Part shown: positions 15,739 to 56,342 of the stretch, one piece after another | Position numbering within the stretch: the stretch's first letter is position 1 | Layout of the letters: the number at the start of each line of letters is the position of its first letter | From: Pseudacidovorax sp. RU35E | GTDB taxonomy: Bacteria; Pseudomonadota; Gammaproteobacteria; Burkholderiales; Burkholderiaceae_C | Assembly (NCBI RefSeq): GCF_900156165.1 | Contig: NZ_FTMY01000005.1 | Location: 186,001-250,000, forward strand | Length of the DNA stretch: 64,000 nucleotides | Direction: 5' to 3' | Made by a program: the position numbers and the translations under genes | Notes under the pieces: model-generated | What the model saw: only the letters and a program-made list of their open reading frames with translations | Databases searched by the model: none | Told to the model about the DNA's origin: nothing

Positions 15739-16614
15739 ATGCAGGTGCTGCAACTCCTGCTCTCGGGCATCGCCCAGGGCTGCATCTACGGGCTGATCGC
15801 CCTGGGCTTCGTGCTCATCTACAAGGCCACCGAGACCGTCAGCTTCGCGCAGGGCGACCTGATGATGCTCGGCGCCTTCGCGGCCTTTGCGGCCATGACG
15901 CTGCTGGGCCTGCCCTTCTGGCTCGCGGCGGTGCTGGCGGTGGCGGCGCTGGTGGCCTTCGGCGCGCTGCTGGAGCTGGTGGTGATTCGGCCCATCCTGG
16001 GCCAGCCGCAGTTCTCCATCGTGATGCTGACCATCGGCATCGGCTACGTGGCGCGCGGGCTGATCACCATGGTGCCCGGCATCGGCACCGAGACGCACAC
16101 GCTGCCCGTGCCCTACAAGGACCAGGTCTGGAACCTGGGCGGCCTGGTGGTGAACGTGGAGCAGGCAGTGGTGATCGTGGCCACGGCCGTGCTGTGCGGC
16201 CTGCTCTTTGCCATGTTCCGCTACAGCAAGCTGGGCATCGCGATGCAGGCCAGCTCGCAGAACCAGCTGGCGGCGTACTACATGGGCATTCCGGTCAAGC
16301 GGCTCAACGGACTGGTGTGGGGCCTCGCAGCGGCGGTGGCCACGGTGGCGGGCATCCTGCTCGCGCCCATCACCTTCGTGCACGCCAACATGGGCTTCAT
16401 CGGGCTCAAGGCCTTTCCGGCGGCGGTGGTGGGCGGCTTCGGCAGCCTGCCGGGCGCCATCGTCGGCGGGCTGGTCATCGGCGTGGTGGAGTCGATGGCG
16501 GGCTTCTACCTGCCCGACGGCTTCAAGGACACGGCGCCGTACATCGTGGTGCTGGCCATGCTGATGGTGAAGCCCAACGGGTTGTTCGGCGAGAAGCTGC
16601 GCAAGAAGGTCTGA
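15739..16614 (+). CDS. LivH-type ABC permease (cassette 1)
   Basis: A 291-residue inner-membrane permease of the branched-chain amino acid (HAAT) ABC family. IYGLIALGFVLIYKATETVS and the FAQGDLMMLGAF segment at the N-terminus, and PAAVVGGFGSLPGAIVGGLV near 235-254, are signature stretches, with about eight membrane helices. It pairs with the LivM homologue three bases downstream. Genetic linkage to an acyl-CoA ligase suggests an organic acid rather than an amino acid as substrate, which is inference. Confidence 0.92.
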   Translation: MQVLQLLLSGIAQGCIYGLIALGFVLIYKATETVSFAQGDLMMLGAFAAFAAMTLLGLPFWLAAVLAVAALVAFGALLELVVIRPILGQPQFSIVMLTIGIGYVARGLITMVPGIGTETHTLPVPYKDQVWNLGGLVVNVEQAVVIVATAVLCGLLFAMFRYSKLGIAMQASSQNQLAAYYMGIPVKRLNGLVWGLAAAVATVAGILLAPITFVHANMGFIGLKAFPAAVVGGFGSLPGAIVGGLVIGVVESMAGFYLPDGFKDTAPYIVVLAMLMVKPNGLFGEKLRKKV

Positions 16615-16617
16615 GCC

Positions 16618-17694
16618 ATGCGTTTCATCTTCAAGACCTCCTACGCGCAGGACATCGACCTGGCCAAGCACGGCGGGCACCGCTTCTGGTATGCGCTGCT
16701 GGGCGTGGTGCTGCTGGCGGCGCCTTGGTTGCTGGACGAATACTGGCTGGCGCAGCTCAACTTCGTGCTCATCTACTCGGTGGTGGGGCTGGGGCTGATG
16801 CTGTTGGCGGGCTTCACCGGGCAGTTCTCCATCGGCCATGCGGCCTTCCTGGGCACGGGCGCGTACACGCAGGGCGTGCTGGTCAACCTGGGCGTGCCCT
16901 TTCCGGTGGCGATGGTGGCGGCGGCGCTGCTGTCCGCGGCGGTGGGCGTGGTGGTGGCCATGCCGGCGCTGCGGGTCAAGGGCATCTACCTGGGCATCGC
17001 CACGCTGGCCTTCGGCTTCATCGTCGAAGAGGTGTTCGCGCGCTGGGAAGGGCTCACGGGTGGCAACGCCGGCCTGCACGTCAAGTCGCCCCGGCTCTTC
17101 GGGCTGGACTTCGGCGGTGGCGAGGCCTTCTACTTCGTCTGCCTCGCCACGGCCGTGCTGTGCACGCTGGGCGTGCTCAACCTGCTGCGCGCGCCCACGG
17201 GCCGGGCCTTCGTGGCCATCCGCGATTCGGAGATCTCGGCGCAGAGCATGGGCATCCACCTGGCCCGCTACAAGACGCTGGCCTTCGCGCTGTCGGCGGC
17301 GCTCGCGGGGCTGGGCGGGGCGCTCTATGCGCACAAGATCAGCTTCCTCTCGCCCGACCAGTTCAGCATCCTGCAGTCCATCGACCTGCTGCTGCTGGTG
17401 GTGATCGGCGGGCTGGGCTCGGTGCACGGCGTGTTCCTGGGCGCCATCTTCCTGATCTCGATGCCGCAGCTCATCGCGTTGAGCAAGGACTGGTTGCCCG
17501 AAGCCGTGGGCCAGGCGCCCGGCCTGCAGGGGCTGGTGTACGGCCTGGTGCTGATCGCCTTCGTGCTCTTCGAGCCCATGGGCCTGTACGGCCGCTGGCT
17601 CAAGGTGCGCGCGTGGCTGCAGCTCTTTCCCTTCTACCGCCGCGGCATGTTCAAGCGGCAGAAGTCCTTCACCAAATCGGACCGGCTGAAATGA
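16618..17694 (+). CDS. LivM-type ABC permease (cassette 1)
   Basis: A 358-residue LivM-family permease with [20 protein letters not shown] near 63-82, the [20 protein letters not shown] segment, and [19 protein letters not shown] near the end. After the last helix comes a cytoplasmic basic tail of about 30 residues ([20 protein letters not shown], then KRQKS). The stop overlaps the start of the next gene as ATGA, showing translational coupling with the ATPase. Confidence 0.92.
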
Positions 17695-18509
17695 GCGACG
17701 TGCTGCTTTCCGCCCAGGACCTCAGCGTGCGCTTCGGCGGCGTGCTGGCGGTCAACCAGGTGAGCTTCGACGTGCGGCGCGGCGAGGTGTTCACGCTGAT
17801 CGGCCCGAATGGCGCGGGCAAGACGACGGTGTTCAACCTCATCAGCCGCATCTACCAGCCCACGACGGGCCGCATCACCTGGAATGGCGGCGCGGCGCCG
17901 CTGACGCTGACCGACCAGCCGCCGCACGCGATCGCGGCGCTGGGCATCGCGCGCACCTTCCAGAACATCGAGCTCTTCGAGCATGCGACGGTGCTGCACA
18001 ACCTGCTGATCGGCCGGCATGTACACCGGCGCACCGGGTTCTGGTCGGAACTCATCTTCACGCCGGCCACCCGCGCCGCCGAAGTCGCCGCGCGCGAGAA
18101 GGCCGAGCAGGTGATCGACCTGCTGGACCTGCAGCACCACCGCGATTCGCTGGTGGCCGGCCTGCCCTATGGCGTGCGCAAGGTGGTCGAGCTGGCCCGC
18201 GCGCTGTGCACCGAGCCCCAGCTGCTGCTGCTGGACGAGCCCTCGTCCGGCCTGAACGTGGAGGAGACCGCGGACATGGCCTTCTGGATCCAGGACATCC
18301 AGCACGAGCTGGGCATCTCCGTGCTGATGGTGGAGCACGACATGACGCTGGTCTCCAAGGTGTCGGACCGCGTGCTCGCGATGGCCCAAGGCGAGGTGCT
18401 GGCCCTGGGCAGCGCCCGCGAGGTGCAGGCCGATGCGCGGGTCATCGAGGCCTACCTGGGCACCGCCGAGGACGTGAGCAGCCTGCGGCGGCCGAAGGTG
18501 GCGGCATGA
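17691..18509 (+). CDS. LivG-type ABC ATPase (cassette 1)
   Basis: A 272-residue ATP-binding subunit: Walker A GPNGAGKT at 38-45, the family-typical [13 protein letters not shown]-loop region, a signature helix [15 protein letters not shown], Walker [13 protein letters not shown] and switch His in MVEHDM. LivG proteins are recognised by the extended Q-loop region and the SGLN (instead of LGL) after Walker B. Its ATG overlaps the livM stop. It energises import through the LivH/LivM pair together with LivF. Confidence 0.93.
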
Positions 18510-18564
18510 CACGCGCCGACGCATCGCGCGAATGTCGCGCCGCGGGTCACGAAGGAGCACGCCC

Positions 18565-19413
18565 ATGAGCACCGGCATCGCCATCGCCTCGACCACGCTG
18601 CCGGTGCACGCCGGCCTGCCGCTGGGCGCCGGTACCGAGCCTGCGGAGGACGTGCTGCAGCTGCTCAACGTCGAGAGCGCCTACGGCCCCATCAAGGCCA
18701 TCCGCGGCGTCAGCCTCAAGGTGCGGCGCGGCGAGATCGCCACCGTGCTGGGCAGCAATGGCGCGGGCAAGACCACCATCCTCAAGACCATCTCCGGCAT
18801 CATCGATCCGCGCAAGGGCACGGTGCATTTCAAAGGCCGCGACATCACCGCGCGCGATCCGGCCTTCATCGTGCAGCAGGGCCTGTCGCATGTGCCCGAG
18901 GGGCGCGAGGTGTTCCCGCTGCTGTCGGTGCGCGACAACCTGCTGATGGGCGCCTACACCCGCCGCGACCGCGATGGCGTGGCGCGCGACCTGGAGACGG
19001 TGTTTGGCTACTTCCCCATCCTGCGCGAGCGTGCCGCGCAGGACGCGGGCCTGCTCTCGGGCGGCCAGCAGCAGATGCTGGCCATCTCGCGCGCACTCAT
19101 GGCTGCGCCCGAGCTGATCCTGCTGGACGAGCCCTCGCTGGGCCTGTCGCCCAAGCTCACCAAGGAGATCTTCGAGATCGTGGTGCGCATCAACCGCGAG
19201 CGCGGCACCACGCTGCTGGTGGTGGAGCAGAACGCCAACATGGCGCTCAATGCGGCCGACTACGGCTACGTGCTCGAGAACGGCCGCATCGTCATGGAGG
19301 ACAGCTGCGAGCGCCTGCGCGAGAAGGAGGACATCAAGGAGTTCTACCTCGGCATGCAGGAGACCGGCGCCCGCGGCGAGCGGCGCTGGAAGAAAAAGAA
19401 GACCTGGCGTTGA
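18565..19413 (+). CDS. LivF-type ABC ATPase with basic C-terminal tail (cassette 1)
   Basis: The product has 282 residues, against about 237 for E. coli LivF. Walker A is GSNGAGKT (63-70), followed by SHVPEGREVFPLLSVRDNL, LLSGGQQQMLAISRAL and LILLDEPSLGLSP. The extra length comes from an N-terminal extension of about 27 residues and a C-terminal tail after EFYLGMQE that is highly charged and ends in RRWKKKKTWR. The paralogue in cassette 2 has a similar basic tail. The start at 18565 follows GAAGGAG. Confidence 0.93.
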   Translation: MSTGIAIASTTLPVHAGLPLGAGTEPAEDVLQLLNVESAYGPIKAIRGVSLKVRRGEIATVLGSNGAGKTTILKTISGIIDPRKGTVHFKGRDITARDPAFIVQQGLSHVPEGREVFPLLSVRDNLLMGAYTRRDRDGVARDLETVFGYFPILRERAAQDAGLLSGGQQQMLAISRALMAAPELILLDEPSLGLSPKLTKEIFEIVVRINRERGTTLLVVEQNANMALNAADYGYVLENGRIVMEDSCERLREKEDIKEFYLGMQETGARGERRWKKKKTWR

Positions 19414-19432
19414 CCGACGAAAGGCCCGCACC

Positions 19433-21409
19433 ATGCGCACCACGCCCTTCCACCTCGCCCGCACCGCGACGGCCGTCCTGCGCGCCGGGCTCGATGCCTC
19501 GGCACCGGCGGCCGCTTCTGCCGCGCCCGCCACCGGCCCCGCCCGCGTGCCCGCGGGACTCTGGGACACGGCCCACATGGCGCCGCGCACCGACATCGTG
19601 GTGCCCGGCGAGACGCTGCCCGCCGTGTTCTGGAACGCTGCCCGCGTGCGCGGCGAGCGCGTGTGGATGCGCCAGAAGGAGCTGGGCATCTGGCGCGCCT
19701 GGACCTGGCAGCAGACGGCCGAGGCCGTGGCCGAGATCGCGCATGGCCTCATGGCCCTGGACTTCGCGCCCGGCGACTGCGCGTCGATCCTGTCCAACAC
19801 GGTGATCGAATGGGTGCTGGCCGACCTGGCGGTGCTCAGCTGCGCGGGCGTTTCGAACGGCATCTATCCCACCGACGCGGCCAGCCAGGTGCACTACCTG
19901 TGCGAGGACTCGTCGACCACCGTCCTCTTCGTCGAGGACGACGAGCAGCTCGACAAGGCGCTGGCCGTGCGCGCGCAGCTGCCGCGGTTGCGCAAGGTGG
20001 TGGTCTTCGACATGAAGGGGCTGCGCGACTTCCACGACCCCGACGTGATGTCGCTGCAGGACCTGCGCGCCCTGGGCCGCGAGCATTTGCGGCTGCATCC
20101 GCAGGCCATCGATGAGCGCGTGGGCCGGTTGAAGCCGGCCGACCTGGCCATCCTCATCTACACCTCCGGCACCACCGGCAAGCCCAAGGGCGCGATGCAC
20201 AGTCATGGCGGCCTGGTGTACGCCATGCGCGGCTACAACACGCTGATCGCGCAGGACGAGCGCGACGAGCGCATGTGCTTCCTGCCGCTGTGCCACGTCG
20301 CCGAACGCATGGGCGGCGAGTACTTCGCCATGTACACCGGCTCGGTGCTCAACTTCGTCGAGAACCCCGAGACGGTGCCCGAGAACGTGCGCGAGATCGC
20401 GCCCACGGTCTTCCTGGCCGTGCCGCGGGTGTGGGAGAAGTTCTATTCCGGCGTGATGATCGCGCTCAAGGAGGCCACGCCGCTGCAGCGCGCCGCCTAT
20501 GCCTGGGCCATCGGCGTGGGCGAGCGCATCGCCGACCGCGTGCTGGCGGGCCAGCCGGTCGATGGCGCGCTGAAGCTGCAGTTCCGCCTCGCGCGCGTGC
20601 TGGCGCTGGACAACGTGCGCAAGCTCATCGGCATCCACCGCGCGCGTTTTCTGGTGACGGGCGCGGCGCCCATCTCGCCTGACCTGGTGCGCTGGTACCT
20701 GGCGCTGGGCGTGCCCATGCTGGAGGTGTGGGGCATGACCGAGACCGGTGGCGCCTCCACCGGCATGCCGGCCGACCGCATCAAGCCCGGCTCCATCGGC
20801 CCGGCCACGTCGTACAACGAGGTGCGCATCGACGAGGGCACCGGCGAGATCCGCGTGCGCGGCCCCAACGTCTTCATGGGCTACCTCAATCAGCCCGAGA
20901 AGACGGCCGAGACCATCGACCCCGATGGCTGGCTGCACACGGGCGATGTGGGCACGGTGGACGCGGACGGGTTTTTCCGCATCACCGACCGCATGAAGGA
21001 CATCATCATCACCGCGGGCGGCAAGAACATCACGCCCAGCGAGCTGGAGAACGAGCTCAAGTTCAGCCCGTACATCACCGACGCGGTGGTGATCGGCGAT
21101 GCCAGGCCCTACCTCACGGTGATCATCATGATCGACCAGGAGAACGTCGAGAAATTCGCGCAGGACCACGACGTGCCCTTCAGCAACTACGCCAGCCTGA
21201 CGCGCGCCCGCGAGGTGCAGGACCTGATCCAGGGCGAGATCGACCGCGTCAACGCCAAGTTCGCGCGCGTCGAGCAGATCAAGAAGTTCTTCCTGCTCGA
21301 CACCCAACTCAGTGCCGAGGACGAGGAGCTGACGCCCACCATGAAGCTCAAGCGCAAGCTGGTGCAGTTGAAGTACGCCTCGCAGATCGAGGCGATGTAT
21401 GCGGCGTGA
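19433..21409 (+). CDS. AMP-forming long-chain-type acyl-CoA ligase (cassette 1)
   Basis: A 658-residue adenylate-forming enzyme. The P-loop YTSGTTGKPKGA is at 243-254, the A5 motif EVWGMTETGG and A7 GWLHTGDVG are intact, and RMKDIIITAGGKNITPSELE is the hinge. The C-terminal Lys (TPTMKLKRK) is present. Architecture and length match long-chain/very-long-chain acyl-CoA synthetases, which make acyl-CoA from acid, ATP and CoA. The first 48 residues are Ala/Pro-rich; an in-frame ATG at 19577 is an alternative start. Its place between livF and livK suggests it activates the imported acid. Confidence 0.93.
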   Translation: MRTTPFHLARTATAVLRAGLDASAPAAASAAPATGPARVPAGLWDTAHMAPRTDIVVPGETLPAVFWNAARVRGERVWMRQKELGIWRAWTWQQTAEAVAEIAHGLMALDFAPGDCASILSNTVIEWVLADLAVLSCAGVSNGIYPTDAASQVHYLCEDSSTTVLFVEDDEQLDKALAVRAQLPRLRKVVVFDMKGLRDFHDPDVMSLQDLRALGREHLRLHPQAIDERVGRLKPADLAILIYTSGTTGKPKGAMHSHGGLVYAMRGYNTLIAQDERDERMCFLPLCHVAERMGGEYFAMYTGSVLNFVENPETVPENVREIAPTVFLAVPRVWEKFYSGVMIALKEATPLQRAAYAWAIGVGERIADRVLAGQPVDGALKLQFRLARVLALDNVRKLIGIHRARFLVTGAAPISPDLVRWYLALGVPMLEVWGMTETGGASTGMPADRIKPGSIGPATSYNEVRIDEGTGEIRVRGPNVFMGYLNQPEKTAETIDPDGWLHTGDVGTVDADGFFRITDRMKDIIITAGGKNITPSELENELKFSPYITDAVVIGDARPYLTVIIMIDQENVEKFAQDHDVPFSNYASLTRAREVQDLIQGEIDRVNAKFARVEQIKKFFLLDTQLSAEDEELTPTMKLKRKLVQLKYASQIEAMYAA

Positions 21410-21443: not shown

Positions 21444-22613
21444 ATGAAGACCATCCGCCCCGCCGCGACCTCGGTCGCCCTTCTCGCGCTCGGCCTCCCG
21501 CTGGCCCATGCCCAGCAGCAGGGCGTGAGCAAGGACGAGATCCGCATCGGCACCATCCAGGACCTGTCCGGCCCATTGGCCGGCTTCGGCAAGCAGGCCC
21601 GCAACGGCATGCAGCTGCGCGTGGAAGAGATCAACGAGCAGGGCGGCATCAACGGCCGCAAGCTCAAGCTCTATGTCGAGGACTCGGGCTACGACCCCAA
21701 GAAGGCCGTGCTGGCGGCGCAGAAGCTGGTCAACCAGGACAAGATCTTCATCATGGCCGGCCACATCGGCACCGCCCAGAACATGGCGGCCATGCCGGTG
21801 CAGTTCGACAAGAACATCATCAACTTCTTCCCGATCACGGCGGCGCGCGAGATGTACGAGCCGCTCAACCGGCTCAAGTATTCCTTCGCCGCCACGTACT
21901 ACGACCAGATCCGCATGGCGCTGCCGAAGATGGTGAAGGAGAAGAACGTCAAGAAGGTCTGCACCATCTACCAGGACGACGAGTTCGGCCTGGAGGTGAA
22001 CCGCGGTGCCGAGGCCGGCCTGAAGGCCGCGGGCATGGAGCTGGCCGAGAAGACCAGCTTCAAGCGCGGCGCGACCGACTTCAGCAGCCAGGTGGCCAAG
22101 ATGAAGGCGGCCGGCTGTGAGGTGGTGGTGCTGGGCACCATCATCCGCGAGACCATCGGCACCATCGGCGAGTCGCGCAAGACCGGCTTCAACCCGGTCT
22201 TCCTGGGCTCCAGCGCGGCCTATACCGACCTGATCCACAAGCTGGGCGGCAAGGCGATGGACGGCATGTACGCCACCATGACGGTGCAGAACCCGTACAC
22301 CGACGAGCAGAACGACAAGATCCGTTTCTGGGCCAACAAGTACAAGACCAAGTTCAACGAGGACCCGACGGTGTTCTCGGTCTATGGCTATTCCATCGTG
22401 GACGACTTCGCGCAGGTGGCGCAGAAGGCGGGCGCCAACCTGACGACTGATTCATTCATCAAGATCATGGACGCGAGCACCTTCGAGCCGGACATGTTCG
22501 GCTCGCCCAAGATGACGTTCACGGCGACCAAGCGGCTGGGCAACAACGCGTCGCGGCTGTCGCAGATCGTGGATGGCAAGTGGAAGGTGGTGTCGGACTA
22601 TGTGGCGGAGTGA
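21444..22613 (+). CDS. LivK-type periplasmic receptor (cassette 1)
   Basis: A 389-residue substrate-binding protein (type I periplasmic fold) with a Sec signal peptide cleaved near AHAQQ. Landmarks are IRIGTIQDLSGPLAGFGKQA, INEQGGINGRKLKLYVEDSG and YQDDEFGLEVNRGAEAGLKA. It is preceded by AAAGGAGAC. It is the sixth and last gene of the cassette, and supplies ligand to LivHMGF. The coupling with a CoA ligase argues for a carboxylic or aromatic acid ligand; the identity is open. Confidence 0.92.
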   Translation: MKTIRPAATSVALLALGLPLAHAQQQGVSKDEIRIGTIQDLSGPLAGFGKQARNGMQLRVEEINEQGGINGRKLKLYVEDSGYDPKKAVLAAQKLVNQDKIFIMAGHIGTAQNMAAMPVQFDKNIINFFPITAAREMYEPLNRLKYSFAATYYDQIRMALPKMVKEKNVKKVCTIYQDDEFGLEVNRGAEAGLKAAGMELAEKTSFKRGATDFSSQVAKMKAAGCEVVVLGTIIRETIGTIGESRKTGFNPVFLGSSAAYTDLIHKLGGKAMDGMYATMTVQNPYTDEQNDKIRFWANKYKTKFNEDPTVFSVYGYSIVDDFAQVAQKAGANLTTDSFIKIMDASTFEPDMFGSPKMTFTATKRLGNNASRLSQIVDGKWKVVSDYVAE

Positions 22614-25144: not shown

Positions 25145-25163
25145 GGTTGTCGTTCTTTCCCGA

Positions 25164-25652
25164 TCAGCCCGAAATGAAGGTGGGCCACACCTGGATCTGC
25201 AGCTTGAGGGCCACGATGAAGGCCAGGTAGCTGCCGACGGCGAGCACGACGGCCAGGATCAGCGAGTCGCGCAGATTGAACTGGTTGCCCGCCATGCTGG
25301 CGATGATGGTCAGCGCGAAGATGGCGATGATCAGCCCCATGGCCGGCAGCCCGATGCTGGGCAGGCCGCCCAGCAGCACGCCGAAGGCCAGGTTGGCGCC
25401 GAGCACGAAGGCCAGCGGCTTCCAGGCCCAGCGGCCGATCTTGCCGCCGTCGGCCGTCTCGACCACCATCGACTGCAGCGAGATCACCGCGCCGATCAGG
25501 GCCAGCAGGATGCCCAGCATCAGCGGAAAATAGCCCGGGCCCATGCGGGCCCCGTCACCGATGGTGTAGTTGGTGGAGCCGACCGCGAACGTTGCGCCCA
25601 CGGCCATGAACATCACACCTGAAAAAAAATCTGCCTGGCTTTTGATGGCCAT
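25164..25652 (-). CDS. tctB: TctB, small permease of tripartite tricarboxylate transporter
   Basis: A 162-residue membrane protein with four predicted helices. The first begins near residue 9 (FFSGVMFMAVGATFAVG) and is followed by GARMGPGYFPLMLGILLALI, the conserved TctB segment. The poorly conserved TctB stabilises the TctA/TctC system. The ATG at 25652 follows a GAGGAG site. It is the first gene of the tctBA operon, opposite tctC. Confidence 0.92.
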   Translation of the reverse strand: MAIKSQADFFSGVMFMAVGATFAVGSTNYTIGDGARMGPGYFPLMLGILLALIGAVISLQSMVVETADGGKIGRWAWKPLAFVLGANLAFGVLLGGLPSIGLPAMGLIIAIFALTIIASMAGNQFNLRDSLILAVVLAVGSYLAFIVALKLQIQVWPTFISG

Positions 25653-25889
25653 TTCGTTGCTTCTCCTCGAGACCTTGTGTTGAAACGGGGGCGAGCGTCG
25701 TCGCCTGAGGCTGACCATTGGCTGACTTGATGTGTAGGGATAAGCGCGTAAGCAGTCTCCACATCGAGGTGTGCCAAATGATTGACGGAGGCTTGAAAGG
25801 CCTGATTTTTTTGCTATGAAAGTCGTAGCGTTTTTCCGTGCGCCGCGCCGTCAGGTCGGCGCTTTTTCCCTGACTGGAGACAGACTGAG
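25653..25889. promoter_or_regulatory. Divergent promoter region tctB/tctC
   Basis: A 237-bp region of lower GC than its surroundings between divergent tctB and tctC. It should contain both promoters, but I could not assign unambiguous -35/-10 pairs. No regulator gene is adjacent. Confidence 0.5.
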
Positions 25890-47009: not shown

Positions 47010-47785
47010 GGTTCGGTGTTCTGGCGGCGCGCCGCGCGCCGTCCCTGTGCGGCGCGCCCGCCCTGCCGCAGGGCGGGGAGGTCGAGCACGCGCAGGCCAC
47101 CGTACTCCACCTGTATGACACCTTGACCGGCGAGCGCCATCAGCGACTCGTTGACCCGCTGGCGCGACAGGCCCACCAGATAGGCCAGCTCCTGTTGCGT
47201 GATGCGCAGCATCTCGCCCACACGCGGGAACAGCACCGGGTTGAACAGCGCCGCCAGGTTGCGCGCCACGCGGGCGTCGGTGTTGTTCAGCCGGTCGATC
47301 TCCACCGCCGCGATGAACTGCCCCAGCCGCTCGTTGAGCTGGTTCATGACGAAGCGGTTGAAGCCGATGGAGTGGTCGAGCAGCCAGTGGAAGCTGTCCA
47401 GCGGCAGCCCGGCCACCACGCTGCGGCGCAGCGCGCTCACGTTGTAGCGGTAGGGCTCGCGCTTGATGGCCGTGCCCTCGCCGAACCAGCCGCCTGGTGA
47501 GAGGCCGCTGTAGGTCACCTGGCTGCCGTCGGCGCGGTCGTTGCTCATCTTGAGCAGGCCTTCGATCACGCCGAACCAGTAGGTGGGCGCGCGGCCCACG
47601 CGGCAGACCTGATCGCCCACCTCGGCCTCGCCCACCACCAGCGCGGCCTCGGCCCGGCGGCGCTCGGCGGGGGCCAGCGCGTCCAGCCAGGGAATGGCCT
47701 GCAGTTCGGCGTCCGTTGCGGGACGCACCCGGTCGCGGATCCCACGGACAGTGGCCTTGGCGTGGCGTGAGCTGCGTTCGCTCAT
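47006..47785 (-). CDS. Crp/Fnr-family transcriptional regulator
   Basis: A 259-residue protein with a cyclic-nucleotide-binding beta-roll (about 45-130, YWFGVIEGLLKMSNDRADGS) and a C-terminal winged helix ITQQELAYLVGLSRQRVNES near 195-214. The four N-terminal cysteines of FNR are absent. The last 20 residues are Arg/Gln-rich. It overlaps the glycosyltransferase gene by four bases, making a regulator-enzyme-membrane protein operon, and is divergent from the fadD-liv cassette 2, which it may also control. Confidence 0.9.
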   Translation of the reverse strand: MSERSSRHAKATVRGIRDRVRPATDAELQAIPWLDALAPAERRRAEAALVVGEAEVGDQVCRVGRAPTYWFGVIEGLLKMSNDRADGSQVTYSGLSPGGWFGEGTAIKREPYRYNVSALRRSVVAGLPLDSFHWLLDHSIGFNRFVMNQLNERLGQFIAAVEIDRLNNTDARVARNLAALFNPVLFPRVGEMLRITQQELAYLVGLSRQRVNESLMALAGQGVIQVEYGGLRVLDLPALRQGGRAAQGRRAARRQNTEP

Positions 47786-47867: not shown

Positions 47868-49835
47868 GTGGAACCTCAAGCCAACACCTTCCCCCGCCTG
47901 CTGATGGCCCATGCACGCCAGCGCCCGGACGCACCCGCCGTGCGCGAGAAGGACCTGGGCATCTGGCAGACCTGGAACTGGTCGCAGGCGGCGACCGAAG
48001 TGCGCGAGCTGGCCTGCGGCCTGGCCAGCCTGGGCTTCTCGGCCGGCGCCAACCTGGCCATCGTGGGCGCCAACCGGCCGCACCTGTACTTCGCCGTGGT
48101 GGCGGCCCAGAGCGTGGGCGGCGTGCCGGTGCCGCTCTACCAGGACGCGGCCGCGGCCGAGATGGTGTTCATGCTGGGCGACGCGGGCATCGAGTTCGTC
48201 TTCGCCGAGGACCAGGAGCAGGTCGACAAGCTGCTCGAATGCCGCGAGCTGCAGCAGGCGGCCGGCGAGGGCGGCACGGCGGCCTTGCGCACCATCGTCT
48301 ACGACGACCCACGCGGCCTGCGTCACTACGACCAGCCCGGCCTGATGAGCTACGAGCAGCTGCGCGAACTGGGCCGGGCCTTCGATGCCGCCACCCCCGG
48401 CTTCTTCGACCGCGCCGTGGCGGCCGGCCAGCCCGATGACGTGGCCGTGATCCTCTACACCTCGGGCACCACCGGCCGGCCCAAGGGCGTGTGCCAGACG
48501 CATGCCAGCTTCATGTCCGCGGGCCGGGGCGGCGTCGAGACCGACCGCCTGGGCCCGGGCGACGACATCATGAGCTACCTGCCCATGGCCTGGGTGGGCG
48601 ACCACCTCTTCTCGGTGGCGCAGTGGCTGGTGGGTGGCTTCACGCTCAACTGTCCCGAGTCCGCCGCCACGGTGATGAACGACATGCGCGAAATCGGCCC
48701 CAGCTACTACTTCGGCCCGCCGCGCACCTTCGAAGGCCTGCTCACGGCGGTGTCGATCCGCATGGAAGACGCGGCCGCGCCCAAGCGCTGGATGTACGGC
48801 AAGTTCATGGCCCTGGCGCGCCGCGTGGGCGCCGACATCCTCGCCGGGCGACCGGTGGGCTTTGTCGACCGGCTGATGTACGGCCTGGGCAACCTGATGG
48901 TCTACGGCCCGCTGCGCAACGTGCTGGGCATGAGCCGCATCCGCGTGGCCTACACCGCGGGCGCGGCCATCGGGCCCGACCTGTTCCGCTTCTACCGCTC
49001 CATCGGCGTCAACCTCAAGCAGTTCTATGGCCAGACCGAGACCTGCGCCTATGTCTGCGTGCAGCGCGATGGCGAGGTCAAGCTCACCAGCGTGGGCACG
49101 GCCGCGCCAGGCATGGAGCTCAAGATCGCCGACAACGGCGAGGTGCTGGTGCGCGGCGTGTCGGTGCTCAAGGAGTACTACAAGCGCCCCGATGCCACCG
49201 CCGAGGTGCTCGATGCCGAGGGCTACTTCCACACCGGCGATGCCGGCGTGATCGACCACGATGGCCATCTGCGCATCATCGACCGCGCCAAGGACGTGGG
49301 CCGCCTCTCGGGCGGCGCCATGTTCGCGCCCAACTACATCGAGAACAAGCTCAAGTTCTTCCCGCAGATCAAGGAGGCCGTGTGCTTCGGCCACGCCCGC
49401 GACGAGGTCTGCGCCTTCATCAACATCGACTACGAGGCGGTGGGCAACTGGGCCGAGCGCCGCGCGCTGCCCTACGGCGGCTACGTGGACCTGGCCGGCA
49501 AACCCGAGGTGCTGCAGCTGGTGCGCGAATGCATCGAGCAGGTCAACGCCGACCTGGCGGCGGAGGAGGGCATGGGCGACACGCAGATCGCCCGCTTCCT
49601 GGTGCTGCACAAGGAGCTGGACCCGGACGACGACGAGCTCACGCGCACCCGCAAGGTCCGCCGCGGCTTCATCGCCGACAAGTACGCGGTGCTGGTCGAG
49701 GCGCTCTATGCCGGCAGGACCGAGCAGTTCATCGAGACCCAGGTCAAGTTCGAGGACGGCCGCACCGGCAGCGTGAGCGCCACGCTCAAGATCGTGGAGG
49801 CGCGCTGCTTCCCACCCGTGAAGGCTGCAGCATGA
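47868..49835 (+). CDS. AMP-forming acyl-CoA ligase (cassette 2)
   Basis: A 655-residue adenylate-forming ligase of the long-chain type. The P-loop YTSGTTGRPKGVC is near 197-209, A5 is QFYGQTETCAY, A7 is GYFHTGDAG, and the hinge RAKDVGRLSGGAMFAPNYIE is intact. No in-frame ATG exists near the N-terminus. GTG at 47868 fits the family start. GTG 47847 and TTG 47859 are alternatives, and the ATG at 47836 is out of frame. It opens the operon and overlaps the next small frame. Likely role: CoA activation of the imported acid. Confidence 0.9.
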   Translation: MEPQANTFPRLLMAHARQRPDAPAVREKDLGIWQTWNWSQAATEVRELACGLASLGFSAGANLAIVGANRPHLYFAVVAAQSVGGVPVPLYQDAAAAEMVFMLGDAGIEFVFAEDQEQVDKLLECRELQQAAGEGGTAALRTIVYDDPRGLRHYDQPGLMSYEQLRELGRAFDAATPGFFDRAVAAGQPDDVAVILYTSGTTGRPKGVCQTHASFMSAGRGGVETDRLGPGDDIMSYLPMAWVGDHLFSVAQWLVGGFTLNCPESAATVMNDMREIGPSYYFGPPRTFEGLLTAVSIRMEDAAAPKRWMYGKFMALARRVGADILAGRPVGFVDRLMYGLGNLMVYGPLRNVLGMSRIRVAYTAGAAIGPDLFRFYRSIGVNLKQFYGQTETCAYVCVQRDGEVKLTSVGTAAPGMELKIADNGEVLVRGVSVLKEYYKRPDATAEVLDAEGYFHTGDAGVIDHDGHLRIIDRAKDVGRLSGGAMFAPNYIENKLKFFPQIKEAVCFGHARDEVCAFINIDYEAVGNWAERRALPYGGYVDLAGKPEVLQLVRECIEQVNADLAAEEGMGDTQIARFLVLHKELDPDDDELTRTRKVRRGFIADKYAVLVEALYAGRTEQFIETQVKFEDGRTGSVSATLKIVEARCFPPVKAAA

Positions 49836-49897
49836 GCGCCCGCCCGGCCGTCCCGAAGGGCGCTCGCACCGCAGGCGAAGCCGAAGGTTATCTATGA
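49832..49897 (+). CDS. Tiny 21-codon frame linking ligase and livG
   Basis: ATGAGC starts inside the ligase stop (ATGA at 49832) and reads 21 codons, MSARPAVPKGAR onward, to a TGA that overlaps the livG ATG (ATGA at 49894). Overlap at both ends would allow ribosomes to move from ligase to livG without release. It has no recognisable family, and may be only a coupling device rather than a functional peptide. Confidence 0.3.
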   Translation: MSARPAVPKGARTAGEAEGYL

Positions 49898-50727
49898 ACG
49901 CGACGACCGCCCAGGAGCTGGCCATGGCCGCCAGCGCGCCCGTCACCGGGCGCCGCATCGGGGACGTGATCCTCGATGTGCAGAACATCACCTTGCGCTT
50001 CGGCGGCGTCAAGGCGCTCACCGACATCAGCTTCGACGTGCGCGAGCACGAGGTGCGCTCGATCATCGGGCCCAATGGCGCAGGCAAGAGCTCGATGCTC
50101 AACTGCATCAACGGCGTCTACCAGCCGCAGGAAGGGCAGATCACCTTCCGCGGCAAGACCTTCCGCCACATGAACTCGCGCCAGGTGGCCGAGATGGGCG
50201 TGGCCCGCACCTTCCAGAACCTGGCCCTGTTCAAGGGCATGAGCGTGCTGGACAACATCATGACGGGCCGCAACCTCAAGATGAAGTGCGGGCTGCTGGC
50301 GCAGGCCTTCCGCCTCGGCCCGGCCGAGCGAGAGGAGATCCGCCACCGCGAGTTCGTCGAACGCATCATCGACTTCCTGGAGATACAGGCCTGGCGCAAG
50401 ACACCGGTGGGCCGCCTGCCCTACGGCCTGCAGAAGCGCGTGGACCTGGGACGCGCCCTGGCCATGGAGCCGCAGGTGCTGCTGCTGGACGAGCCCATGG
50501 CCGGCATGAACGTCGAGGAGAAGCAGGACATGAGCCGCTTCATCCTGGACGTGAACGACGAGTTCGGCACCACCATCGTGCTGATCGAGCACGACATGGG
50601 TGTGGTGATGGACATCAGCGACCGCGTCGTGGTGCTGGACTACGGCAAGAAGATCGGCGACGGCACGCCCGACGAGGTGCGCAACAACCCGGAAGTCATC
50701 CGGGCCTACCTGGGTGCGGAGCACTGA
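49894..50727 (+). CDS. LivG-type ABC ATPase (cassette 2)
   Basis: A 277-residue ATPase. Walker A is GPNGAGKS (59-66), followed by VARTFQNLALFKGMSVLDNI, the signature helix LPYGLQKRVDLGRALAMEP, Walker B VLLLDEPMAGMN and the switch His in LIEHDMG. The MAGMN variant after Walker B is typical of the ligase-linked LivG group. It follows the acyl-CoA ligase and is followed by livH one base after its stop. Confidence 0.93.
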   Translation: MNATTAQELAMAASAPVTGRRIGDVILDVQNITLRFGGVKALTDISFDVREHEVRSIIGPNGAGKSSMLNCINGVYQPQEGQITFRGKTFRHMNSRQVAEMGVARTFQNLALFKGMSVLDNIMTGRNLKMKCGLLAQAFRLGPAEREEIRHREFVERIIDFLEIQAWRKTPVGRLPYGLQKRVDLGRALAMEPQVLLLDEPMAGMNVEEKQDMSRFILDVNDEFGTTIVLIEHDMGVVMDISDRVVVLDYGKKIGDGTPDEVRNNPEVIRAYLGAEH

Positions 50728-50728
50728 C

Positions 50729-51658
50729 ATGGGCTTTTTCCTCGAAACCCTTTTCGGCGGCCTCATGGTGGGCATGCTGTATTCGCTGATCGCGCTGGGC
50801 TTCGTGCTCATCTACAAGGCCAGCGGCGTCTTCAACTTCGCGCAGGGTGCCATGGTGCTGTTCGCGGCGCTGGCCATGGCGCGCTTTGCCGAATGGCTGC
50901 CCAAGCTGCTGGGCTTCGAAAGCCTGCTGCTGGCCAACCTGCTGGCCTTCGTCGCGGCCATGGGCGTGATGGTGATCGTGGCCTGGCTGATCGAGCGGCT
51001 GGCGCTGTCCAAGCTGGTCAACCAGGAGCACATCACGCTGCTCATGGCCACGCTGGGCATCACCTACTTCCTCGACGGCCTGGGCCAGACGCTGTTCGGC
51101 AACGACATCTACAAGATCGATGTCGGCATGCCCAAGGACCCGATGATGCTGTTCGAGGGCACCTTCGAAGGCGGCCTTCTGGTCAGCAAGGAAGACCTCA
51201 TCGCCGCATTGGTGGCGGCGGCCCTGGTGCTGGCACTGAGCCTGTTCTTCCAGAAGACCTCCACCGGCCGCGCACTGCGTGCGGTGGCCGACGACCACCA
51301 GGCGGCGCAGTCCATCGGCATCCCGCTCAACCGCATCTGGGTGATCGTGTGGTCGGTGGCCGGCTTCGCGGCCCTGGTGGCCGGGATCATCTGGGGCTCC
51401 AAGCTGGGCGTGCAGTTCTCGCTGTCGCTGGTGGCGCTCAAGGCGCTGCCGGTGGTGATCCTCGGCGGCCTCACCTCGGTGCCCGGCGCCATCATCGGCG
51501 GACTGCTGATCGGCGTGGGCGAGAAGCTGTCCGAGATCTACCTGGGGCCCATGCTGGGCGGGGGCATCGAGATCTGGTTCGCCTATGTGCTCGCGCTTGT
51601 CTTCCTGCTCGTGCGGCCCCAGGGGCTGTTCGGCGAAAAGATCATCGACCGCGTCTGA
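50729..51658 (+). CDS. LivH-type ABC permease (cassette 2)
   Basis: A 309-residue permease with about eight helices. LYSLIALGFVLIYKASGVFN and FAQGAMVLFAALAM are the N-terminal hallmarks, QAAQSIGIPLNRIWVIVWSV is the coupling region, and VVILGGLTSVPGAIIGGLLI lies near the C-terminus. It pairs with the LivM homologue starting nine bases downstream. Confidence 0.92.
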   Translation: MGFFLETLFGGLMVGMLYSLIALGFVLIYKASGVFNFAQGAMVLFAALAMARFAEWLPKLLGFESLLLANLLAFVAAMGVMVIVAWLIERLALSKLVNQEHITLLMATLGITYFLDGLGQTLFGNDIYKIDVGMPKDPMMLFEGTFEGGLLVSKEDLIAALVAAALVLALSLFFQKTSTGRALRAVADDHQAAQSIGIPLNRIWVIVWSVAGFAALVAGIIWGSKLGVQFSLSLVALKALPVVILGGLTSVPGAIIGGLLIGVGEKLSEIYLGPMLGGGIEIWFAYVLALVFLLVRPQGLFGEKIIDRV

Positions 51659-51667
51659 AGGACCCTC

Positions 51668-52732
51668 ATGCTGTACAGAGAGAACGGACAGTTCAAGTCG
51701 AGTTACAGAGCCGACCAGCAGATCTTTCCGATCCTGCAGGATCGCGTCGCCATCCTTGCGCTGCTGGTGCTGGCCTTCGCCGCGGTGCCGGCGCTGGCCT
51801 CGGAATACTGGCTGCGCGCCATCTTCACGCCCTTCCTCATCCTGTCGCTGGCGGCGCTGGGACTGAACATCCTGGTGGGCTATTGCGGGCAGATCTCGCT
51901 GGGCACCGGCGCCTTCATGGCGGTGGGCGCCTATGCGGCCTACAACTTCCATGTGCGCATCGAGGGCATGCCGCTGATCGCCTCGCTGCTGCTGGGCGGG
52001 CTGTGCGCCACGGGCGTGGGCGTGCTCTTCGGCATCCCCAGCCTGCGCATCAAGGGCCTGTACCTGGCAGTGGCGACGCTGGCGGCGCAGTTCTTCACCG
52101 ACTGGGCCTTCCTGCGCATCCAGTGGTTCACCAACAACTCGGCCTCGGGGTCGGTGAGCGTGGCGGGCCTGAACGTCTTCGGGCTGCCGGTGGAGACGCC
52201 CGCGCAGAAGTACCTGCTGTGCCTTGCCTTCGTCAGCGTGTTCGCGCTGCTGGCCAAGAACCTCACGCGCAGCAGCATCGGCCGCGAATGGATGGCCATG
52301 CGCGACATGGACGTGGCCGCCGCCGTCATCGGCATCCGCCCGGTGTACGCCAAGCTGACGGCCTTCGCGGTCAGCAGCTTCATCGTGGGCGTGGCCGGGG
52401 CGCTGTGGGGCTTCGTGCACCTGGGCGCCTGGGAGCCGGCGGCCTTCAGCATCGACCGCTCCTTCCAGCTGCTGTTCATGGTGATCATCGGCGGGCTCGG
52501 CTCGATCATGGGCAGCTTCTTCGGCGCGGCCTTCATCGTGCTGCTGCCCATCTTCCTGAACCAGCTGCCCGGCTGGTTCGGCGTGTCGATGTCGACGGCG
52601 CTGGCCTCGCACCTCGAATTCATGATCTTCGGCGCGCTGATCGTGTTCTTCCTGATCGTGGAACCACATGGCCTTGCAAGGCTGTGGTCCACGTTCAAAG
52701 AGAAGCTGCGACTTTGGCCCTTCCCACATTGA
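51668..52732 (+). CDS. LivM-type ABC permease (cassette 2)
   Basis: A 354-residue LivM permease with VGYCGQISLGTGAFMAVGAY near 77-96, LRIKGLYLAVATLAAQFFTD and IIGGLGSIMGSFFGAAFIV. An N-terminal extension of about 35 charged residues precedes helix 1. The protein ends in a short basic tail (FKEKLRLWPFPH) resembling the LQLFPFYRR part of the cassette 1 tail. Confidence 0.92.
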   Translation: MLYRENGQFKSSYRADQQIFPILQDRVAILALLVLAFAAVPALASEYWLRAIFTPFLILSLAALGLNILVGYCGQISLGTGAFMAVGAYAAYNFHVRIEGMPLIASLLLGGLCATGVGVLFGIPSLRIKGLYLAVATLAAQFFTDWAFLRIQWFTNNSASGSVSVAGLNVFGLPVETPAQKYLLCLAFVSVFALLAKNLTRSSIGREWMAMRDMDVAAAVIGIRPVYAKLTAFAVSSFIVGVAGALWGFVHLGAWEPAAFSIDRSFQLLFMVIIGGLGSIMGSFFGAAFIVLLPIFLNQLPGWFGVSMSTALASHLEFMIFGALIVFFLIVEPHGLARLWSTFKEKLRLWPFPH

Positions 52733-52769
52733 GTTCCCGTCGTTCATGCCCAACCAGAAGGAGACAACC

Positions 52770-54092
52770 ATGAAGCTGAAATCCCTCGTCCTGGCCGCAG
52801 CGGCCTTCGCTGCCCTGGCCGGCACGGCCGGTCAGGCCCTGGCGCAGGCCAAGGAGCAGTTCTTTCCGTTGCTGGTCTACCGCACGGGGCCCTATGCGCC
52901 CAACGGCACGCCGTGGGCCAACGGCAAGCAGGACTACATCAAGCTGGTCAATGCCCAGGGCGGCATCAATGGCGTGAAGATCGCCTACGAGGAGTGCGAG
53001 ACGGGCTACGCCACCGACAAGGGCGTCGAATGCTACGAGCGCCTCAAGGGCCGCCCCGGCGTGGCCGTGTTCGACCCGCAGGCCACCGGCATCACCTTCG
53101 CGCTGACCGACAAGGTGCCGCAGGACAAGATCCCGCTCATCACGCTGGGCTACGGCCTGGGCGCGTCGCAGGACGGGAATGTGTTCAAGTGGAACTTCCC
53201 GCTCATGGGCAGCTACTGGACGGCGGCCGACATCCTCATCCAGCACCTGGGCAAGAAGGAAGGCGGGCTCGACAAGCTCAAGGGCAAGAAGATCGCGCTG
53301 GTCTACCACGACTCGCCCTTCGGCAAGGAGCCGATCCCGCTGCTGCAGGAGCGCGCCAAGCTGCATGGCTTCGACCTGTCGCTGATCCCGGTGACGGCGC
53401 CGGGCGTGGAGCAGAAGTCGGCCTGGCTGCAGGTGCGCCAGCAGCGGCCCGACTTCGTGCTGCTGTGGGGCTGGGGCGTGATGAACTCCACCGCCCTCAA
53501 GGAAGCCGTGGCCACCGGCTACCCGCGCGAGAAGATGTACGGTGTGTGGTGGGCCGGCGCCGAGCCCGACGTGCGCGACGTGGGCGCCAATGCCAAGGGC
53601 TACAACGCGCTGGCGCTCAACACCTCGGGCACCGAGCCCAAGGTGATCCAGGACATCCTCAAGACCGTGCACGACAAGGGCCAGGGCACGGGCCCGCGCG
53701 ACGAGGTGGGCTCGGTGCTCTACACCCGCGGCGTGATCATCCAGATGCTCACCGTGGAAGCCGTCAAGCGCGCTCAGGAACGCTTCGGCAAGGGCAAGGT
53801 CATGACCGGCGAACAGGTGCGCTGGGGCCTGGAGAACCTGGCGCTCGACCAGAAGAAGCTGGACGCACTGGGCTTCGCGGGCGTGATGCGGCCGGTCAGC
53901 ACCAGCTGCCAGGACCACATGGGCTCCAGCTGGGCGCGCGTGCACACCTGGGACGGCGCCAAGTGGGGCGGCATGTCCGACTGGTACCAGGCGGACGAGG
54001 CCATCCTCAAGCCGCTGGTCAAGACGACCGCGGACAAGTACGCGGCCGAGAAGAAGCTGACGCGACGCGACACCGCTGATTGCGGCGCCTGA
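52770..54092 (+). CDS. LivK-type periplasmic receptor, long form (cassette 2)
   Basis: The 440-residue substrate-binding protein, longer than usual (about 370-390), has a Sec signal peptide cleaved near ALAQAK. Landmarks are LVYRTGPYAPNGTPWANGKQ, VNAQGGINGVKIAYEECETG and VYHDSPFGKEPIPLLQERAK. Two Cys pairs (EECETGYATDKGVECYE; STSCQDH with TADCGA at the end) suggest disulphides. It belongs to the receptor group that accompanies CoA ligases, which bind organic or aromatic acids; ligand unknown. Confidence 0.9.
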   Translation: MKLKSLVLAAAAFAALAGTAGQALAQAKEQFFPLLVYRTGPYAPNGTPWANGKQDYIKLVNAQGGINGVKIAYEECETGYATDKGVECYERLKGRPGVAVFDPQATGITFALTDKVPQDKIPLITLGYGLGASQDGNVFKWNFPLMGSYWTAADILIQHLGKKEGGLDKLKGKKIALVYHDSPFGKEPIPLLQERAKLHGFDLSLIPVTAPGVEQKSAWLQVRQQRPDFVLLWGWGVMNSTALKEAVATGYPREKMYGVWWAGAEPDVRDVGANAKGYNALALNTSGTEPKVIQDILKTVHDKGQGTGPRDEVGSVLYTRGVIIQMLTVEAVKRAQERFGKGKVMTGEQVRWGLENLALDQKKLDALGFAGVMRPVSTSCQDHMGSSWARVHTWDGAKWGGMSDWYQADEAILKPLVKTTADKYAAEKKLTRRDTADCGA

Positions 54093-54095
54093 ACG

Positions 54096-54173: not shown

Positions 54174-54246
54174 TGGCCTGCCAACCGGCTGGACGACGCG
54201 TGCGCATTTGATCGCCGTTCGCATCCCTGATGCCCGAAGGAACTTC

Positions 54247-55059
54247 ATGAGCCAAGGCAATCCTCTCCTCGACGTCAACGGCATCGAGGTCATCTACAAC
54301 CACGTGATCCTGGTGCTCAAGGGCGTCTCGCTGCAGGTGCCCGAGGGCGGGATCGTGGCGCTGCTGGGCGGCAACGGCGCGGGCAAGACGACCACGCTGC
54401 GCGCGGTCTCCAACCTGCTGGCCGGCGAGCGCGGGGCAGTGACCAAGGGCAGCATCACGCTGCGCGGCGAGCGCATCGAGGCGCTGTCGCCGGCGGCGCT
54501 GGTCAAGCGCGGGCTGGTGCAGGTGATGGAAGGGCGCCACTGCTTCGCGCACCTGAGCATCGAGGACAACCTCATGACCGGCGCCTACACCCGCACCGAC
54601 GGCAAGGCCGCGGTGGCCGAGACGCTGGAGAAGGTCTATGCCTACTTTCCGCGGCTCAAGACCCGGCGCACCAGCCAGGCGGCCTACACCTCGGGCGGCG
54701 AGCAGCAGATGTGCGCGATCGGGCGCGCGCTGATGGCCAACCCCAGCATGGTGCTGCTGGACGAACCCTCCATGGGCCTCGCCCCGCAGATCGTGGAGGA
54801 GGTGTTCGCCATCGTGAAGGACCTCAACGAGAAGGAGCGCGTGACCTTCCTGCTGGCCGAGCAGAACACGCGCATGGCGCTGCGCTTCGCCAACTACGGC
54901 TACATCATGGAAAGCGGCCGCATCGTGATGGACGGCCCCGCCGAGAGCCTGCGCGAGAACGAGGACGTGAAGGAGTTCTACCTCGGCATGGGCGGCGCCG
55001 ACCGCAAGAGCTTCCGCGACGTCAAGAGCTACAAGCGCCGCAAGCGCTGGCTGGCCTGA
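54247..55059 (+). CDS. LivF-type ABC ATPase with basic C-terminal tail (cassette 2)
   Basis: A 270-residue ATPase. Walker A is GGNGAGKT (41-48), with VQVMEGRHCFAHLSIEDNLM, YTSGGEQQMCAIGRAL and VLLLDEPSMGLAP. After the LivF end EFYLGMGG it carries a charged tail RKSFRDVKSYKRRKRWLA, about 25 residues, that E. coli LivF lacks and that resembles the tail of the cassette 1 paralogue. Separated from the rest of the cassette by the hairpin-containing 154-bp gap. Confidence 0.93.
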   Translation: MSQGNPLLDVNGIEVIYNHVILVLKGVSLQVPEGGIVALLGGNGAGKTTTLRAVSNLLAGERGAVTKGSITLRGERIEALSPAALVKRGLVQVMEGRHCFAHLSIEDNLMTGAYTRTDGKAAVAETLEKVYAYFPRLKTRRTSQAAYTSGGEQQMCAIGRALMANPSMVLLDEPSMGLAPQIVEEVFAIVKDLNEKERVTFLLAEQNTRMALRFANYGYIMESGRIVMDGPAESLRENEDVKEFYLGMGGADRKSFRDVKSYKRRKRWLA

Positions 55060-55094
55060 GCAATCCCACGCCCATCGAACCCGCGCTGTTTGCC

Positions 55095-56342
55095 ATGACC
55101 GATTTCTACGACGACCTCGAGACCCGCTCGCCGCAGGCGCGCGAAGCCGCCCTGATGGCCGCGCTGCCCGCGCAGATCCGCCATGCGCAGCAGAAGGCGC
55201 CGGCCTTTGGCCGCATCCTGCAGGGCGTCGACGCCACCACAGTGAACATGCGGGCCGCGCTGGCCCGGCTGCCCGTGACGCGCAAGAGCGAACTGCTGGC
55301 GCTGCAGCAGGCCCAGCGGACGGAGGACGCCTTCGGCGGCTTCTCGGCCGTGCCGCGTGGGCCGGCGATGCCGCGCGTCTTTGCCAGCCCCGGGCCCATC
55401 TATGAACCGCAGGGCGCGCATGGTGACCACTGGCGGGTGGGCCGTGCGCTGTTCGCGGCCGGCTTCCGGGCGGGCGAGCTGGTGCACAACAGCTTCAGCT
55501 ATCACATGACCCCGGCCGGGGCCATGATGGAAAGCGGTGCGCATGCATTGGGTTGCAGCGTATTCCCGGGCGGCACCGGCCAGACCGAGCAGCAGCTGGA
55601 GGCCATGGCCGATCTGAGGCCCGACGGCTATGCAGGCACGCCCAGCTTCCTCAAGATCCTGCTGGAGAAGGCGGCCGAGAAGGGCGTCCGCCTGCCGTCG
55701 CTGACCAAGGCGCTGGTCTCGGGCGAGGCCTTCCCACCGAGCCTGCGCGCGCATCTGGCCAGCCTGGGCGTGCAGGGCCTGCAGTGCTACGCCACGGCCG
55801 ACCTGGGCCTGATCGCCTACGAGACGGAGGCCCGCGAAGGGCTGGTGGTGGACGAAGGCGTGCTGGTCGAGATCGTGCGCCCTGGCACGGGCGACCCGGT
55901 GCCCGAGGGTGAAGTGGGCGAGGTGGTGGTGACCACCTTCAATGCCGACTACCCGCTGGTGCGCTTTGGCACCGGCGACCTGTCGGCGGTGATGTCGGGC
56001 GTCTGCCCGACGGGGCGCACCAACCAGCGCATCAAAGGCTGGATGGGCCGCGCGGACCAGACCACCAAGATCCGCGGCATGTTCGTGCACCCCGGCCAGG
56101 TGGCCGACATTGCGCGGCGCTTTCCGGAGATTGCGCGCGCGCGGCTCGTGGTCGAGGGTGCGACGGGCGACGACCGCATGACACTCAAGGTCGAATGCAG
56201 TCAGGCGCCCGACGGACTGCATGAGCGGGTCGCCGCCGCCATCCGCGACGTGACCAAGCTGCGAGGCGATGTGCGCATCGAGCCCCCCGGCAGCCTGCCC
56301 AACGATGGCAAGGTCATCGAGGACGCGCGCAGCTACGAGTGA
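55095..56342 (+). CDS. PaaK-like AMP-dependent ligase family protein lacking canonical P-loop
   Basis: A 415-residue protein of the phenylacetate-CoA ligase-like group. Present are SFSYHMTPAGAMMESGAHAL, FPGGTGQTEQQLEAMADLRP, YAGTPSFLKILLEKA, RFGTGDLSAV (A7), WMGRADQTTKIRGMFVHPGQ (A8/hinge) and a Lys near the end (NDGKVIED). Where PaaK has SSGTTGKP this protein reads FASPGPIYEPQ, and the A5 region is YATADLGLIAYE. It may still activate an aromatic acid with altered ATP binding, or have another role. It closes the cassette 35 bp after livF. Confidence 0.8.
   Translation: MTDFYDDLETRSPQAREAALMAALPAQIRHAQQKAPAFGRILQGVDATTVNMRAALARLPVTRKSELLALQQAQRTEDAFGGFSAVPRGPAMPRVFASPGPIYEPQGAHGDHWRVGRALFAAGFRAGELVHNSFSYHMTPAGAMMESGAHALGCSVFPGGTGQTEQQLEAMADLRPDGYAGTPSFLKILLEKAAEKGVRLPSLTKALVSGEAFPPSLRAHLASLGVQGLQCYATADLGLIAYETEAREGLVVDEGVLVEIVRPGTGDPVPEGEVGEVVVTTFNADYPLVRFGTGDLSAVMSGVCPTGRTNQRIKGWMGRADQTTKIRGMFVHPGQVADIARRFPEIARARLVVEGATGDDRMTLKVECSQAPDGLHERVAAAIRDVTKLRGDVRIEPPGSLPNDGKVIEDARSYE

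Follow-up and report, generated by a model that had tools for sequence, protein, structure and literature searches.

Two Liv-type importer operons of Pseudacidovorax sp. RU35E carry their own acyl-CoA ligases, and one adds a PaaK-fold protein without the ATP phosphate loop

When an acyl-coenzyme A (acyl-CoA) ligase is encoded among the genes of an ATP-binding cassette (ABC) importer, do import and activation of the substrate form one unit? The question is raised by a stretch of 64,000 nucleotides (nt) from Pseudacidovorax sp. RU35E (contig NZ_FTMY01000005.1, positions 186,001 to 250,000), hereafter the window, which holds two operons, or cassettes, that join a Liv-type importer to an adenylate (AMP)-forming ligase. 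A first-pass annotation of the window had proposed both, and its coordinates and gene orders are confirmed here. The genes are as follows, with Pfam domains or other grounds in parentheses.

Cassette 1
15739..16614, + strand, LivH-type permease 1 (PF02653)
16618..17694, + strand, LivM-type permease 1 (PF02653)
17691..18509, + strand, LivG-type ATPase 1 (PF00005+PF12399; start placed by inspecting the sequence next to the livM stop)
18565..19413, + strand, LivF-type ATPase 1 (PF00005; best NCBIfam match LivF, under its cut-off)
19433..21409, + strand, AMP-forming acyl-CoA ligase 1 (PF00501+PF23562)
21444..22613, + strand, substrate-binding protein 1, LivK-type (PF13458)

Cassette 2
about 47868..49835, + strand, AMP-forming acyl-CoA ligase 2 (PF00501+PF23562; start codon guessed)
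49894..50727, + strand, LivG-type ATPase 2 (PF00005+PF12399)
50729..51658, + strand, LivH-type permease 2 (PF02653)
51668..52732, + strand, LivM-type permease 2 (PF02653)
52770..54092, + strand, substrate-binding protein 2, LivK-type (PF13458)
54247..55059, + strand, LivF-type ATPase 2 (PF00005)
55095..56342, + strand, SPG-PaaK, a PaaK-fold protein in which SPGPIYEP replaces the A3 phosphate loop (motif alignment and structure model)

Cassette 1 runs livH-livM-livG-livF-ligase-livK, all on the + strand, with a 4-nt overlap of livM and livG and gaps of 3-55 nt elsewhere; cassette 2 runs ligase-livG-livH-livM-livK-livF-PaaK-like, with gaps of 1-154 nt. Each operon encodes two PF02653 permeases, two PF00005 ATPases, and one PF13458 binding protein, the complement of a Liv/HAAT importer. 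The coupling of ligase and importer is genetic. With a probability of about 0.68, we read each cassette as one import-activate-trap unit for a carboxylic acid, joined in cassette 2 by SPG-PaaK as a partner. The importer would bring in an acid that lacks an alpha-amino group and is most likely hydrophobic, for instance medium-chain or branched/terpenoid. The dedicated ligase would activate this acid at once, and the resulting CoA thioester would be trapped and passed to beta-oxidation. We infer the trapping step from the chemistry of the family. SPG-PaaK, with the phosphate loop lost and the A10 lysine and fold kept, would most likely make no adenylates from ATP and may instead serve the ligase/ATPase side as an adaptor, as a binder of acyl-adenylate or acyl-CoA, or as an ATP-free CoA-dependent enzyme. 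Operons of importer and ligase are already known in kind, and the unexpected element of the two cassettes is SPG-PaaK.

The linkage was measured by searching 100 Burkholderiales genomes with ligase 1, scoring at most 12 candidates per genome. Full-length matches split at 311 versus 281 bits. The 46 matches of at least 311 bits (the liv clade) include the two of the window; stretches around the 44 from other genomes were fetched and scanned with profiles built from Liv, ligase, and PaaK proteins. In 40 of these 44 loci, the ligase has a permease gene no more than 3 kb away. The exceptions have livK only (L170, L171), one ATPase before the contig ends (L176), or an upstream ATPase fragment on a short contig (L202). 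By comparison, no Liv gene was found within 3 kb of a sister-clade ligase in any of 25 fetched control loci, drawn from the best-scoring end of a longer list of matches under the split; one of them (L158) has a permease pair 3.7 kb away, outside that limit. The first-pass annotation had suggested this count across Burkholderiales, and the outcome bears out its expectation that this ligase clade belongs to Liv operons. In a second, family-level sample (120 genomes, at most 10 candidates scored per genome, 40 of the matches of at least 369 bits fetched), 39 of 40 ligase loci are Liv-linked, the other (L260) having no Liv gene nearby.

Gene order is conserved as well. Orthologues of the cassette-1 ligase (at least 785 bits) occur in 48 of the 120 family genomes, its own included, and all 20 fetched orthologous loci (L222-L241) keep the order livH-livM-livG-livF-ligase-livK, some with a second livK. 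Other loci arrange the same parts as livG-livH-livM-livK-livF-ligase or set the ligase between ATPase and permease genes, and that they were put together repeatedly in more than one order suggests that selection favors linkage. The operon of cassette 2 is conserved as a whole. The named set consists of 80 loci that encode the PaaK-like protein, the top 80 of at least 588 relatives, and the nearest named relatives of cassette 2 among the matches listed are Pseudacidovorax contigs. All seven genes are present in 60 of the 80, in the order seen in the window with small additions, and in the other 20 the available stretch starts within the operon. The seven-gene order recurs in 25 of the 44 liv-clade loci of the order sample, with livK and livF exchanged in one more. 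PaaK is missing from the available stretch at L182, L187, and L221, the last of which ends soon after livF; in the genome of L182, an SPG-PaaK gene lies about 8 kb further downstream, at the end of L309. These data give good support to the view that import and CoA trapping form a single genetic unit, for which published precedents are described below.

Both cassette ligases, 35% identical to each other, and the clade around them carry the A3 loop and A10 lysine of ANL acyl-CoA ligases. Among 192 liv-clade rows, the lysine (loose pattern) is present in all and the loop is strict in 171 and variant in 20, with one fragment. Against the NCBIfam FadD11 model (NF038343), the two cassette ligases score 419.7 and 314.8 bits, under its cut-off of 950, and a PDB sequence search with ligase 2 returned only general ANL enzymes among the best 60 of 186 matches.

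Might these be ordinary branched-chain amino acid importers that stand near ligases by chance? The family name and the PF02653 and PF13458 domains would suggest so. The ligase linkage is clade-specific, and the binding proteins also speak otherwise. At the positions of Ser79, Thr102, Tyr202, and Glu226 of the leucine-binding protein LBP, which we take to be its amino-acid clamp, LivK1 has T110, A133, I233, and S257; it lacks three of the four clamp residues (Thr102, Tyr202, and Glu226) and does not keep the clamp expected of a branched-chain amino acid importer. LivK2 has a single strong PDB relative, 4ru0 (E value 5e-111), and matched no LBP relative. The COG0683 proteins of Rhodopseudomonas palustris, furthermore, mostly do not bind Leu, Ile, or Val (PMC3223731, cited here, like the other papers, from selected passages). 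We consider a chance arrangement of amino acid importers very improbable. Of 21 stretches around cassette 1 in its relatives, 13 have acyl-CoA dehydrogenase matches, 12 have matches to a thioesterase of the hotdog type (identified by eye), six to TetR, and five to AtuA; because of these neighbors, our guess for the cassette-1 substrate is an aliphatic acid, possibly branched or terpenoid.

The first-pass annotation spoke of two cassettes. Both are real, but the genome contains seven clusters of a Liv importer with an AMP-forming ligase, which rules out that only two exist. Of its 28 PF02653 permease groups (53 matches), eight lie no more than 6.5 kb from a site of one of the 33 PF00501 genes, whereas 2.2 would be expected if placement were random (P ≈ 0.001), a crude model for a domain that also includes sugar-type importers. 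Since one ligase sits between two groups, the eight groups make seven distinct clusters, five of them outside the window (C12, L081 and L082; C20, L083; C19, L084; C3, L085). The ligases of L081-L085 match the cassette-ligase profile weakly and in pieces and thus are distant from both cassette ligases. The conservation of gene order across genomes is far stronger evidence than this placement test. Apparent LivM-LivG type permease-ATPase fusions, each in a single open frame, were seen at L084 (6920-9793) and L224 (1991-4759).

A simpler account is that importer and ligase are merely co-expressed for one catabolic pathway, with trapping adding nothing specific. Peripheral catabolic operons often combine an importer and a ligase. 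The mbd operon of Azoarcus sp. CIB is such a case: like both cassettes, it unites a five-gene ABC importer (mbdB1-B5) and a CoA ligase (mbdA), although it serves an anaerobic aromatic pathway, that of 3-methylbenzoate, and growth there hinged on the ligase rather than the importer (PMC4424350). In a mutant with an insertion in an importer gene, the ligase gene was by itself enough to restore growth on 3-methylbenzoate, so an importer can be dispensable (PMC4424350). The likeness is one of gene content, no PaaK-fold partner being mentioned in the passages of PMC4424350 drawn on here. Other precedents tie importer and ligase to a shared substrate. In R. palustris, binding proteins of this class bind fatty, dicarboxylic, or aromatic acids and are encoded near ligases, and the ligand profile of the RPA3723-3725 cluster beside pimFABCDE fits the neighboring PimA ligase (PMC3223731). 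That ligase lies in an adjacent beta-oxidation operon, whereas the cassette ligases lie inside the transporter operon, and the comparison is one of function (PMC3223731). In Ralstonia sp. CL21, the importer ABZR87_RS12600-20 and the ligase ABZR87_RS12625 share a pimelate-specific fitness defect; we liken this system to the cassettes by description, reading adjacency from the locus-tag numbers (PMC12543098). Plain co-regulation fits less well with a linkage that is stronger than in the sister-clade ligases and survives different gene orders, and we consider it unlikely, even if sequence hardly separates it from an import-activate-trap unit.

The first-pass annotation went further and proposed that import and CoA trapping are physically coupled. 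In vectorial acylation of the FadD/FATP type, CoA ligation acts as a metabolic trap; the cassettes would have this trap in common and differ in that their importer is driven by ATP and has a binding protein to itself. True vectorial acylation would have the ligase, together with SPG-PaaK in cassette 2, bind the LivF/LivG side and take its substrate directly from the permease. Linkage beyond chance, which such a mechanism entails, is near-obligate here (40/44 versus 0/25 fetched loci), and the PaaK-fold partner accompanies the operon across many families. A weak pointer comes from pairwise distances in 57 cassettes, which, uncorrected for species phylogeny, correlate at 0.73 for ligase and LivF versus 0.24 for ligase and LivK, and ligase and LivF are not neighbors in these cassettes. 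On the other side, no ligase-Liv fusion occurs in loci L001-L261, and parts of the operon appear to have been exchanged. In the 18 cassette-2 loci whose ligase identity exceeds 80%, livH, livM, and livK switch jointly: 13 loci have a close form (livK 85-99%) and five a distant one (livK 61-72%), while the identities of the ligase, livG, livF, and PaaK cover the same range in both groups; the block corresponds to 50729-54092 of the window, and the apparent exchange involves L006, L011, L013, L014, and L033. Separately, the ligases of the 57 full cassettes are of two types (32 and 25; L001-L080) that are about 40% apart and occupy the same operon slot, although livG and PaaK are almost as similar between the two types as within them. 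Import specificity and ligase thus are exchangeable parts, and their exchange while the rest of the operon stays fixed argues against a rigid complex of one importer with one ligase. Together with the dispensable importer of mbd (PMC4424350), these findings leave physical coupling unsupported and vectorial acylation in the strict sense quite unlikely.

What, then, is the seventh protein of cassette 2? The first-pass label of "paaK-like" holds for the fold and fails for the ATP phosphate loop. The predicted structure (pLDDT 91) keeps the PaaK fold, and the protein retains the A7 aspartate and carries new invariant residues. At the position of the A3 phosphate loop SSGTTGKP, it has SPGPIYEP instead, and residue-by-residue alignment to 2y4o and 2y27 ruled out an alignment slip. 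The SPG motif is found in 111 of 111 aligned cassette-type rows and in 30 of 30 phylum-level loci, whereas the 19 non-cassette homologues all carry the canonical loop. SPG-PaaK differs from the PaaK ligases of known structure (2y27, 2y4n, 2y4o) in this loop, in being encoded with Liv genes, and in scoring 128.1 bits against the PaaK equivalog model TIGR02155, far under the cut-off of 646.3. In the phylum-level search (at most six candidates scored per genome), a gap separates SPG-PaaK matches of at least 545 bits from those of at most 237 bits, and 13 of 14 wide contexts adjoin ligase and Liv operons, some of them outside this taxonomic class. Variants include an SPG-PaaK gene divergent from the operon (L294), a distant intermediate at 237 bits with the motif SPGPVFE in the operon livG-ligase-livH-livM-livK-livF-PaaK (L301), and a distant PaaK-like frame, without a Liv gene, in which a regular-expression search matched neither of the two motifs (L307). 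A decaying copy was ruled out by the invariant motif and by ratios of nonsynonymous to synonymous substitution (dN/dS) of 0.09-0.10 to near relatives, which indicate purifying selection.

Alternatively, SPG-PaaK could be an additional acyl-CoA ligase, fully active with its unusual phosphate loop, given the conserved A7 aspartate and A10 lysine and a fold that is predicted to be intact. With the canonical loop missing from every aligned cassette-type row and the PaaK model score so low, we find this doubtful. SPG-PaaK is probably a repurposed, non-adenylating partner of import and activation, as judged from its motif and its neighbors. A more specific proposal is possible, and we put it forward only tentatively: SPG-PaaK may be a branch of its own within the adenylate-forming superfamily, one that gave up ATP adenylation and in several lineages of the phylum became a dedicated accessory subunit of Liv and ligase systems. 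It would pass substrate, acyl-adenylate, or acyl-CoA between permease and ligase in a three-part machine of import, activation, and retention. In the titles and abstract openings of the open-licence literature, we found no description of SPG-PaaK or a PaaK pseudoenzyme, nor of a seven-gene operon of Liv, ligase, and PaaK genes. The main text of a study of PaaK evolution (PMC13186573) does not contain the words "ABC transporter," "branched-chain," or "degenerate."

Several observations weigh against the reading of each cassette as one unit with SPG-PaaK as its partner. The importer of mbd proved dispensable (PMC4424350), permease and binding-protein genes have been swapped independently of the ligase, and the substrates of both cassettes are ones that we infer. 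SPG-PaaK keeps the A10 lysine in 98% of rows, which argues against a pure adaptor role, since such an adaptor would not need it. Its dN/dS rises to 0.30 and 0.31 to more distant relatives, and to one and the same near relative it is 0.093 versus 0.022-0.074 for the other six genes. Finally, in two genomes of one genus the SPG gene lacks these neighbors in the stretch covered: at L297 (the same gene as L281), the 12 kb contain neither a ligase nor a Liv gene, and at L286 the 1.5-kb flanks show none.

Both cassettes have a regulator gene beside them.

14709..15689, + strand, AraC-family regulator, 5' of cassette 1 and co-oriented, 49-nt gap (PF12833/PF00165)
47006..47785, - strand, Crp/Fnr-type regulator, divergent from cassette 2 (PF00027+PF13545)

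The AraC-type and Crp-type genes named in the first-pass annotation are both real by their domain matches, and its pairing of two substrates with two regulators is plausible. The Crp-type linkage is widespread: where the stretch reaches far enough upstream, 48 of 56 named loci and 13 of 27 from the order sample have such a gene next to the cassette-2 ligase and divergent from it. The AraC gene, in contrast, is present in only 1 of 21 cassette-1 loci, from the same genus. Of 32 order-level cassette-2 loci, 6 encode a 3-hydroxyacyl-CoA dehydrogenase upstream in the same orientation. In the window, cassette 2 is followed by an FAD-binding oxidase and a MarR gene (57741-59177 and 57086-57553), a pair matched at these places only in L001, L002, and L009 among the named loci tested; in relatives, TctC-like genes (names by eye) are often found downstream. 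Tripartite tricarboxylate transporter-type genes, also named by eye, flank cassette 1 (12353-13330 and 23627-26879).

A ligase clade nearly tied to ABC importers provides a clean set of operons in which to test by what means bacteria import hydrophobic acids against a gradient and whether activation with CoA is a step of that transport. SPG-PaaK is likely annotated as phenylacetate-CoA ligase, because the nearest curated models are those of PaaK, and the family may therefore carry a wrong name wherever it is present. The two loci in which its gene has no Liv gene in the stretch covered, L297 and L286, might reveal how the protein acts by itself. More broadly, SPG-PaaK may show what the ligase fold is capable of without the ATP phosphate loop.

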